From the NCBI GenBank assembly GCA_008501735.1, contig QQUF01000032.1:1-64000 (forward strand): a stretch of 64,000 nt of DNA, written 5' to 3'. The position numbers and the translations under genes were made by a program. The notes below the pieces were generated by a model, which did not search any database, was not told the DNA's origin, and saw only the letters and a program-made list of their open reading frames with translations. Positions 2,776 to 42,979 of the stretch are shown piece after piece (the stretch's first letter is position 1; each line of letters begins with the position of its first letter). Origin of the DNA: Calditrichota bacterium. GTDB taxonomy: Bacteria; CLD3.

Positions 2776-5667
2776 TTAAGAAGTTATTGTTGATTGAAGA
2801 ATGTCTTCAACCACTGAAAGCAACTCTCTTTTGCGGATAGGTTTTTGAAGGTAACTCGAACAACCTGAATCAAGACATTTCTGAATTGCTTCGTGTCCTT
2901 GATGAGCAGTGAGAGCAATTATTGGAATCTCTTTTCCATTTTCTAAATCTCTGATTTGCTTGGTTGCTTCGTATCCGTTTAAAACAGGCATTTCCATATC
3001 CATTAATATTAAAGAAACAGGAGTCTTCTTAAAATAATCGACGGCTTCTTTTCCGTTTTGAGCAAAAGCAACTTTAAATAAATTGGCTTTTTTCAAATAA
3101 TTTGCTATCAAATTTTGATTGTCTTTTGTATCGTCAACTACTAAAATTATCGGTCTGTTATCTAACCATTCATTAATTTTATTTATTAAATCTTGTTTCT
3201 TTAAAGGCTTTGTCAAGTAATCATCCATATCGTGTTGTAAACATTTTTCACGGTAGCCTTGCAAAGCGTGAGCAGTTAAAGCTATAATTGGAGTTCTTTC
3301 TTTTTGATTTTGGTGTTCCAAAAACCTAATCATTTCAGTTGCTTGAAATCCGTCAAGCAAAGGCATTTGAACATCCATCAAAATCAAACCGTAATTAAAA
3401 TCTTCTGTTGCATTTACAGCTTGATGCCCGTTTGAAACTACATCAATTCTAAAATCGCCTTTCTCTAAAATCGTCTTTATAAGGTGTTGGTTAGTAGAAT
3501 TATCTTCTGCTAAAAGTATTTTTGGCTTAATCTTTAATTTCTGTTTTGATAGCTCAATTGGAATCTCTTTTTTGATTCTTCTATCTTTTTTTACCTTGAG
3601 GGTTTCGGTTAAAACATCAAATAATCTTGATTGTTTAACGGGTTTTGTCACGTACTGAACAATGTCTAAGGTTTCACGAATATCTGCTTTTACTTCACCG
3701 AAAGATGATAAAATTATTATTTTAACTTCATCAAATTTAGGGTTCTTTCTGACTTTTTGGACAAATTCAACGCCGTCCATTTCAGGCATTTGGTAATCTG
3801 AAATGATTAAATCAAATTGTTTAGTTTCTAAAGCCTGCAAACCTTCTTTACCACTTTTCGCTAAGTCAACTTCAAACCCCCAAGCCTTAAGAGTTTTTTC
3901 CAAAATGAAAAGATTCGTATTGTTGTCGTCAACTACTAAAATTTTTATTTCTTCGAAGCCGTATTTCTGAGGTGTTGCAATGAGATTTGAGTCCTTTGAA
4001 TTTTTCTCCAAAAATACGTAAAAATGAAAAGTACTTCCTTTGCCAAGTTCACTCTCAATCCACATTTTACCATTCATTAAACTTACAAGAGATTTTGAAA
4101 TGCTCAGCCCCAAACCTGTTCCGCCAAATTTCCGAGTCGTGGAATTATCGGCTTGTGTGAATTTTTCGAAAATTTTGTCAATATTTTCTTGCGAGATTCC
4201 AATTCCTGTGTCTTTGACTGAAAAGTGAACGGCTATGAAACCTGACGAGGTTAAATCGCTGTTTTCATAAGGCTCAACTGTGATTGAAATTTCTCCTTTT
4301 GAAGTAAATTTTATTGAATTCCCAACAAGGTTTATTAAAATTTGACGTAAACGTAAAGGGTCTCCTTTGAGGTCAGTGTTAAGATTTGGGTCAACGAAGC
4401 AAAGCATTTCTAAACCTTTTTTTTCTGCACGGGTTCCGAGAATGTCAACAATGCTTTCGATAACCTCGATTAAATCAAATTCTGAATCGTCTAAAGTCAT
4501 CTGACCCGCTTCTATCTTTGAGAAATCCAAAATGTCGTTGATGAGACCAAGAAGTGCTTCTGAAGAATTCTCGACTACTCGCAAAAACTCGCTTTGTTCT
4601 TCGTCAAGTTCAGTGTCAAGTGTTAGCTCTGTCATTCCAATAATTGCATTCAAAGGAGTTCGGATTTCGTGGCTCATATTTGCCAAAAATTCGCTTTTAG
4701 CTTTGCTTGCTTCCTCTGCTTGAAGTTTAGAATCTTTAAGTTCCTTCTCTGCTTCCTTTCGCTCAGTGATGTCAGCCAAACGAATTAGGATTACACTTTT
4801 TTCTCTTAATTTTATTTCTTTAAGTTCAATGTCACCCCAAAAAATTTCGCCTTCAAAATCAACGTATTTCGATTCTTTTTTCCAATGATTTTCTTTAATC
4901 AAATCTTTTAATGTTGATTCCTCAAAATTTCCTGATTTACCAGAAGGGTGAAGTTCTTGAATTCTCAAATCAATAATTTCTTCTCGGCTTTTTGCCTGGA
5001 AAAGATTCAGAGCTTGTTCGTTACAGTTTAAGATTTTATTAGTTTCAAGTGCAACCAAGAACAACGCATCTGCTGAATCTTCAAAAATTGAGCTCATCAA
5101 CCTTTCACTGTCAGAAAGTGCCGTTTGGATTTTGATTCTTGAAGAAAGGACAAAATATGAAATCAAACCAATCGCAAAAATTACACTGACGAGCATTAAA
5201 GGTTTTATGGCAGGTTCGGAAATAAAAGTTGAAGTTGTGAAAGTACCAATTGTTGCAAAAAAAACGTAAGCAGCAAGAGATTTGCGTTTCTTAAAAGCTA
5301 ATGTTGAACCAAAAATTAAAAGTAAAAATGCAAAAGAAAAACCAACTGAAACGCTGTTTGCATACATCAATGCAAACTGCCAAAGAGTTAAACAGTAAAG
5401 CACGAAGTAGAAAAAAGGAACAGCATATTTTTTTGCTAAAGCATTTTTTGCCGTTAGAAAAAAATAGCTCAAACAGACAGCAGAAATGATTAATCTTAAT
5501 GACATCCAATCAACAGCATTTGGGTCTGTGATTTTTTTTATAACACCAAAAAGAGGAATCAAGACCGCCGCAAGAATTGCTAAAGTTCTATAAAAAATCA
5601 AACTTTGGTCAAAGTTCTTATTAGATTTTTCTTTTTGAAATCTTTTAAACATTATTTTAAAATCCAT
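2776..5667 (-). CDS. membrane hybrid histidine kinase with PAS and three receiver domains
   Basis: 963 residues. Domains in order: about six hydrophobic segments (residues about 25-190), one PAS domain (about 190-310) ending in the usual [12 protein letters not shown] linker, HisKA with [12 protein letters not shown] (phospho-acceptor His at about 333), HATPase_c with N, G1 (DTGIGI) and G2 ([10 protein letters not shown]) boxes, and three receiver domains. Each receiver has its acidic pair and phospho-Asp: [26 protein letters not shown] and [13 protein letters not shown]. There is no HPt or DNA-binding domain, so output must go through another protein. It is divergent from thyA and no partner regulator lies next to it. 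Signal unknown. Confidence 0.9.
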
Positions 5668-5781
5668 AAAAATGTGGCGAAGGAATCGGATAGAAACTTA
5701 AATCTAAAACTTAGAGTTTCCAAATTAAATTCCTATATTTCAAGCCATATTATTATTAGAAAAAAGATTCGGAGAATTTCG

Positions 5782-6576
5782 ATGAAGCAATACTTAGATT
5801 TGCTTAAGTTTGTTCTTGAAAACGGTACATTCAAAGAAGACAGAACAGGAACAGGAACGAAAAGTGTTTTCGGTTACCAAATGCGTTTTGCCCTTTCAAA
5901 AGGTTTTCCTTTAGTTACGACCAAAAAGACTCACTTAAAGTCAATAATTTACGAACTTCTTTGGTTTCTTAAAGGCGACACAAATATTCGTTTTTTGAAA
6001 GAAAATGGAGTTTCGATTTGGGACGAATGGGCTGATGAGAACGGAAATTTAGGTCCTGTTTACGGCTCTCAGTGGAGAAGTTGGGCAACACAAAACGGTG
6101 AAACAATTGACCAAATTTCACAACTTGTTGACCAGATTAAAAACAATCCTGATTCGAGAAGAATGATTGTTTCAGCTTGGAATGTTGGTGAAATTTCTGA
6201 AATGAAACTTCCACCTTGTCATTGCCTTTTTCAATTTTACGTCGCAAACGGAAAACTTTCGTGTCAACTCTACCAAAGAAGTGCAGATATTTTTCTTGGC
6301 GTTCCTTTTAATATCGCTTCTTACGCACTTCTGACGATGATGCTTGCACAAGTTTGCGGACTTGAAGCAGGCGATTTTGTGCACACTTTTGGGGACGCAC
6401 ATATTTATTCAAATCATTTTGAGCAAGTAAATTTACAGTTGAGTCGTGAACCTTTTCCTTTGCCAAAAATGAAAATTAATCCAGATGTAAAATCTATTTT
6501 TGATTTCAACTACGAAGACTTTACACTCGAAAATTACCAATCACATTCAAGAATTAAAGCAGCAGTTGCAGTATGA
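5782..6576 (+). CDS. thyA: thymidylate synthase
   Basis: 264 residues, the same length as the E. coli enzyme. Makes dTMP from dUMP with methylene-tetrahydrofolate. EDRTGTGT near the N-terminus, catalytic Cys146 in LPPCHC, and [17 protein letters not shown] for dUMP binding are all present. I start at 5782 ([10 protein letters not shown]) because it follows a good ribosome site (ggaga) and matches the family N-terminus; the open frame extends upstream to 5605 but without homology. It overlaps folA by 4 bp (ATGA), the usual dTMP/folate pair. Confidence 0.97.
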
Positions 6577-42219: not shown

Positions 42220-42696
42220 ATGAAACTCACCATTCTAATTGCACTGCTTTTGACAGTTAATTTGGCTTTGGGACAAGCCAAAGACTACAAACTTAATGGA
42301 GAAGTTAGAAAAGTCTTTCGTGAAGAAATGTCAAAAATTGATAGCACTTTTCAAGAAATGAATCATCACCTTGTGCGAGGAAATCTGATTTCTTACAGAA
42401 ATTGTGTGAGAAAAATTAAAGAAGGATTTGTTTTAAAATCTAAATTAACAATTGAACAGCACAAAGAAATTGATTCAAAACTTTCCAAACGTTACAAAAG
42501 TTATGCTTCAAAATTTGAAAGACACTTGAGAAAACTCTCTTCTGCTGCGAAAAAACGAGATTTGGAATTAATTAATTTTTATCACGGTAAAGTTCTTGAA
42601 GACTGCACAAGTTGTCATAAAAATGTAGTTTCAGAGAAGTTTCCGAATTTTAAAAGTAAAAAGAAAAGCACTTCTAAGAAAAAAGGTCAAAAATGA
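42220..42696 (+). CDS. cytochrome c-type protein with C-terminal CxxCH (cytochrome c'-like)
   Basis: 158 residues. Signal peptide to about residue 19 (ending LALGQA) predicts export. The body is helical and very Lys-rich. A single heme motif CTSCH at residues 129-133 lies near the C-terminus, the layout of four-helix cytochrome c'-like proteins. The Lys/Ser-rich tail is about 25 residues. It overlaps the next (selenoprotein) gene by 4 bp (ATGA), so a shared redox role is possible. Class is by layout only. Confidence 0.72.
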   Translation: MKLTILIALLLTVNLALGQAKDYKLNGEVRKVFREEMSKIDSTFQEMNHHLVRGNLISYRNCVRKIKEGFVLKSKLTIEQHKEIDSKLSKRYKSYASKFERHLRKLSSAAKKRDLELINFYHGKVLEDCTSCHKNVVSEKFPNFKSKKKSTSKKKGQK

Positions 42697-42914
42697 AAAA
42701 CATCTCAATTGAATACTGTGTAGTTTGAAATTACGAACCACGTGCGGTCAGTTTGGCAGCAGAAGTTAAAGAGAATTTTGGAGTTGAAGTGAAAATGATT
42801 CCTTCAAGCGGTGGAGTCTTTGAAGTCGTTGTTGATGGCGATTTAATCTTCTCAAAAAAAGAACTCAAACGACACGCCGAAGAAGGCGAAATTCTTGGAA
42901 TCTTAAAAAAGTAA
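42693..42914 (+). CDS. SelW/Rdx-family selenoprotein with in-frame UGA (selenocysteine)
   Basis: 73 residues if UGA at 42726-42728 is read as selenocysteine. The N-terminus reads ISIEYCVVU then NYEPRA, the Rdx-family CxxC redox motif with Sec in place of the second Cys (C9-V-V-U12). Downstream are SLAAEVKENFG, IPSSGGVFEVVVDG and LIFSKKELKRHAEEGEI, the conserved 'GG-FEV' and 'FSKK' blocks of SelW/SelT-like thioredoxin-fold proteins. Homology is continuous across the UGA, and UGA is a normal stop elsewhere. A short hairpin (acc/ggt around 42738-42750) follows the UGA as a possible SECIS core, unproven. Overlaps the cytochrome gene stop (ATGA). Confidence 0.88.
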
Positions 42915-42933: not shown

Positions 42934-42967
42934 TATGTCGATACGCAATGCATTGCGTATCGACATA
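42934..42967. terminator. 34-bp perfect palindrome, bidirectional terminator
   Basis: 17-bp arms starting tatgtcgatacg meet at caatg|cattg. It lies between the convergent selenoprotein gene and trkA, with T-rich flanks on both sides. A terminator fits; the perfect symmetry would also allow cruciform formation or protein binding. Confidence 0.75.
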
Positions 42968-42979
42968 ATTTGTTTAGCT

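Follow-up and report, generated by a model that had tools for sequence, protein, structure and literature searches.

The DNA analysed here (the window; 64,000 nucleotides of contig QQUF01000032.1, assembly GCA_008501735.1, from a Calditrichota bacterium) almost certainly contains, judging from its sequence, a gene encoding a bacterial SelW-like selenoprotein of the Rdx family, in which an in-frame UGA would be read as selenocysteine (Table 1). The first-pass annotation had proposed selenocysteine as the best reading of this codon. That reading is supported by the sel genes of the same genome, by UGA codons at the selenocysteine sites of selD and fdhA, by the conservation of the UGA across species and phyla, and by a covarying hairpin. 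The gene boundaries given at that stage are exact: an ATG at 42693 is followed by 11 sense codons, the TGA, 61 further sense codons, and a TAA at 42912-42914. With the UGA counted as one residue, the product reads MKNISIEYCVVUNYEPRAVSLAAEVKENFGVEVKMIPSSGGVFEVVVDGDLIFSKKELKRHAEEGEILGILKK. As had been anticipated for standard ORF callers, an ordinary gene finder misses the gene, which is a clean case of a gene dropped by standard annotation.

Table 1. Features of the selW-like locus (positions in the window).
Feature	Position	Strand	Remarks
Cytochrome c'-like monohaem gene	42220..42696	+	Hydrophobic N-terminus MKLTILIALLLTVNLALG, CTSCH haem motif; PF01322 25.8 bits, just under the cut-off of 26.5
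selW-like selenoprotein gene (putative)	42693..42914	+	73 aa, Sec12; matches to Pfam Rdx, NCBIfam NF041051 and TIGR02174
UGA read as selenocysteine (predicted)	42726..42728	+	Codon 12, second redox residue of CxxU, the first being Cys9; relatives share a UGA here, and the remaining homologues examined have Cys (TGT/TGC)
Bacterial SECIS-type hairpin UGC-G-GUCA-GUU-UGGC-A-GCA	42743..42761	+	Same register in 55 distinct sequences

The protein on both sides of the UGA had been assigned to the Rdx/SelW family, and the Pfam Rdx match, which covers residues 3-72, indeed spans the UGA (PF10262; 69.8 bits, cut-off 22.6, E 2.3e-19, model positions 1-73 of 74). The product also scores above the cut-off of TIGR02174 (58.8 bits, cut-off 34.2). 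The equivalog model NF041051, "SelT/SelW/SelH family (seleno)protein", has a short name, SelTWH_Campy, that points to Campylobacterota members; the selW product matches it at full length and above its cut-off (101.3 bits, cut-off 88; residues 4-71 on model positions 1-69 of 70). No Rdx-family gene other than the selW-like gene was found in the genome.

The UGA falls, as proposed, on the second redox cysteine of the CxxC motif: the segment YC9VVU12 aligns with the CxxC of 2fa8 and of other chains, and this CxxU follows the first strand, close to the N-terminus. The best match among solved structures is 2fa8 (E 1.9e-9), in which the second Cys of CxxC stands opposite the UGA. Proteins such as 2fa8 (Atu0228) and human C17orf37/MIEN1 (2ljk) are Rdx members by sequence whose CxxC aligns with the CxxU of this gene, but they carry Cys where the product described here would carry selenocysteine. 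A thioredoxin-like fold, as described for MIEN1 (PMC3527542), is predicted for the product from its family membership and its homology to solved Rdx structures. Mammalian selenoprotein W (2npb) belongs to the same family and shares the CxxU redox motif, with a weak sequence match (E 0.043). In eukaryotes the SECIS element sits in the 3'-UTR, whereas the hairpin described here lies just after the UGA. The eukaryotic and bacterial SECIS are of different types (PMC1088965).

The machinery required for selenocysteine decoding was sought in the whole genome, a 4.14-Mb assembly of 59 contigs listed as 100% complete. The first-pass annotation had held that absence of every sel gene would count against its reading; selA, selB, selC and selD were all found, above curated cut-offs, with scores of 492 bits for selA (cut-off 268), 371 bits for selB (cut-off 242), 367 bits for selD (cut-off 125) and 61 bits for tRNA-Sec, the selC product (cut-off 47). 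ARAGORN also calls this tRNA, as tRNA-SeC with the anticodon TCA (UCA). At least two other genes of this genome each have a single in-frame UGA at a selenocysteine site: selD, at the classical site VKCAGU-ASKL (L010, 1531; genome G000, contig C46, about 187319), and the best fdhA, for the formate dehydrogenase alpha-subunit, at VHQCAATU-HAP (L095, 1906; contig C41, about 122282). It is therefore likely that selD is itself a selenoprotein gene, and that the genome encodes at least three selenoproteins (selW-like, selD and fdhA), a lower bound given that the selenoproteome was sampled through family searches.

The UGA is conserved wherever the gene was found among relatives. In the phylum of the window the gene is present in five of nine genomes, and all five carriers have UGA at this codon. 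In a second phylum (that of genome G033) it was found in 51 of 80 genomes, with UGA in all 51 carriers among the matches listed. The protein of a sister genus (G001) is 70% identical (51 of 73 positions, the UGA position counted) and has UGA at the same codon, a correspondence that, on sequence comparison, is far beyond chance. Over the 61 codons that follow the UGA, the two genes differ at 20, 10 and 28 sites in codon positions 1, 2 and 3, respectively, which argues that the frame is translated and has not decayed. Alignment with Cys homologues, which had been suggested as a check, placed Cys (TGT/TGC) opposite the UGA in the other homologues examined. More distant homologues (31-45% identical) came from a plasmid search, in 23 records. 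A profile scan of contigs returned Cys forms only; because the peptide pattern used for it required Cys codons, the scan is uninformative on the relative frequency of Sec and Cys forms.

The distribution of selA was compared with that of selW in the window's phylum. Every one of the five selW carriers has a selA gene, either full or truncated by a contig end; among the four genomes that lack selW, two gave no selA match, one gave weak matches and one has a partial selA. Two genomes of the survey (G066 and G060) have second copies (L089 and L090, respectively) that are divergent SelW-like paralogues: UGA occupies the site, but the usual NYxPRA context is missing (YCETU-GTT and YCVFU-LSG); these may form a separate subfamily.

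The hairpin just after the UGA fits the bacterial SECIS model, which specifies an upper stem of 4-16 bp, a loop of 3-9 nt with a G in its first two positions, and 16-37 nt between UGA and loop (PMC13188914). Its stem pairs 42743-42745 with 42759-42761 and 42747-42750 with 42754-42757, with one G.A mismatch between the two segments. The loop is AGUUU (42750-42754; GUU if the A-U pair is closed), has G at its second position, and is separated from the UGA by 21 nt. Folded as single sequences, neither this hairpin nor the SECIS interval suggested in the first-pass annotation was better than shuffles (z +0.70; -0.72, -0.21). The case for a SECIS element consequently rests on covariation among relatives and not on folding energy. 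An Rfam scan near the gene returned only sub-threshold chance hits.

For the covariation analysis, the DNA of 55 distinct sequences was aligned without gaps from the UGA onward (column 1 being the T of TGA). Of the 345 helices of 5 bp that are possible, the stem joining columns 20-24 to 30-34 ranked first (93% of its cells are paired), and RNAalifold returned the same stem from the unconstrained alignment. When a sixth pair was added and 32 representative sequences were used, four stem pairs proved to vary on both sides; cells changed on both sides numbered 17, where shuffles gave 5.0 +/- 1.7. The score for covariation was 0.331, as opposed to 0.139 in shuffles (reached in 0 of 500, with shuffles that ignore shared ancestry), and it fell to about 0.09 when the partner was slid by one base, a control that keeps shared ancestry. 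The apical loop has five bases with G at the second position in 54 of the 55 sequences. The sister genus has AAUUU as the homologous loop in that register, so that neither of the first two loop positions is G; an alternative register there, GCU(GUUAAUUU)AGC, would restore the loop G. In four Cys homologues compared at the DNA level, only two or three of the five SECIS core pairs can form. In several selW genes of the other phylum (L079, L080, L084 and L086-L088), columns 22-32 change from G-C to U-A, and both sides of this change alter an amino acid (Ala to Ser or Phe, and Ala to Glu or Lys). Since these compensatory changes alter the protein, it appears that RNA structure places constraints on the protein sequence.

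That the frame stays open whichever residue the TGA is read as would also be expected if UGA were reassigned throughout the genome, for example to Trp, and the site were an ordinary sense codon. However, the first-pass annotation had observed that UGA is a real stop elsewhere, at the end of thyA (thymidylate synthase, 5605-6576), and this holds more widely: UGA ends six of the 44 long, largely non-overlapping ORFs of the window, thyA among them. In addition, prfB, which encodes RF2, is present and keeps the classical CUU-UGA-C site of programmed +1 autoregulatory frameshifting, GGAGGTATCTTTGAC (L103, around 1534; genome G000, contig C52, about 62774; AGGTATCTTTGAC). UGA is therefore a working stop codon recognised by RF2. 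A tRNA with a UCA anticodon does exist, but it is tRNA-Sec, and the in-frame UGAs that were found sit at Sec/Cys sites only. With reassignment excluded on these grounds, its residual probability is negligible. A sequencing error, or the decay of a CxxC Rdx gene into a pseudogene, could also have produced the codon, given that TGA is one base away from both TGC and TGT and that Cys homologues exist. Against this explanation, the same UGA occurs in more than 50 independent assemblies from at least two phyla, the frame after it is under protein-coding constraint, and the genome decodes selenocysteine. Conservation of the UGA in relatives is what refutes error or decay, which we regard as exceedingly improbable; in view of these relatives, it is very unlikely that reads would show TGT or TGC at the codon.

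Decoding of selenocysteine generally competes with termination by RF2. The UGA might accordingly terminate most of the time and act as a selenium-responsive switch, so that the product is a short peptide except when selenium is abundant, and the downstream frame is rarely translated. The ATGA overlap, through which selW looks translationally coupled to the ORF upstream, is also compatible with such a switch. Nevertheless, the entire downstream domain is conserved, which points to the full-length protein as the selected product, and the locus is without a separate feature of a regulatory leader; a switch of this kind is thus very doubtful.

The selenoprotein reading implies the following course of events. 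The ribosome would translate 11 codons and then meet the UGA, where SelB with Sec-tRNA(Sec), bound to the hairpin 21 nt downstream, would deliver selenocysteine in place of RF2; translation would then resume for 61 codons to the UAA. These decoding steps are deduced from the anatomy of the gene, its conservation and the machinery found, and delivery by SelB at the UGA would follow from established bacterial selenocysteine decoding. The resulting small protein would adopt a thioredoxin fold, its redox centre being Cys9-x-x-Sec12. We infer a redox reaction on a putative substrate in which Cys9 and Sec12 would cycle via a selenenyl-sulphide bond, with thiols as the presumed reductant of that bond.

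Selenoproteins of the SelW-like kind were recognised in bacteria some twenty years ago, and the novelty implied in the first-pass annotation was overstated, given that SelW-like proteins with CxxU are a listed bacterial selenoprotein family (PMC1088965, PMC1794560, PMC13188914). In a survey of the Sargasso Sea, the SelW-like family, with 48 genes and the CxxU motif, outnumbered every other selenoprotein family; its function was considered unclear but probably redox, and an interaction with glutathione was cited (PMC1088965). A 2006 analysis of bacterial genomes included the family and found very few Cys forms of it in organisms that contain Sec (PMC1794560), and a 2026 review lists it as PF10262 with CxxU (PMC13188914). 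The gene described here resembles these members in family, CxxU site, bacterial-type SECIS right after the UGA, and Sec-decoding host; only the host lineage differs, a sparsely sampled phylum (nine species compared).

Directly upstream of selW lies a cytochrome c'-like gene whose TGA stop overlaps the selW ATG. The pair is located between an mraY-murD-ftsW cluster and trkA, both of which are on the other strand. The sister genus likewise has, directly upstream of selW, a gene 48% identical to this one, with a stop/start overlap of one base (TAATG), and mraY is adjacent there too. A genome of the same class (L024) and the other-phylum loci with ORFs listed showed no comparable gene immediately upstream of selW, and the link between cytochrome and selW looks family-specific. 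The gene order hints at a possible partnership of selW with the upstream cytochrome. That SelW is the dedicated partner of this overlapping c'-type cytochrome, for instance in haem-thiol maturation or in its redox repair, is an improbable extension of this idea; if true, it would provide the first assignable substrate for the widespread, functionally obscure bacterial SelW. A literature search for an operon link between SelW-like genes and cytochromes returned only a study of genome mining for unknown amino acids. On the other side of selW, a near-perfect palindrome (ATGTCGATACGCAATGCATTGCGTATCGACAT, 42934-42969) separates selW from trkA, which converges on it; the palindrome is probably either a terminator serving both directions or a small repeat element, and many of the chance hits in the Rfam scan arise from it.

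A SelW-like selenoprotein in a sparsely sampled phylum leaves what is known unchanged in kind. For studying covariation in the SECIS of bacterial SelW, the genomes that carry selW form a good set. Members of two phyla decode selenocysteine and, as far as searched, carry SelW in its Sec form only.
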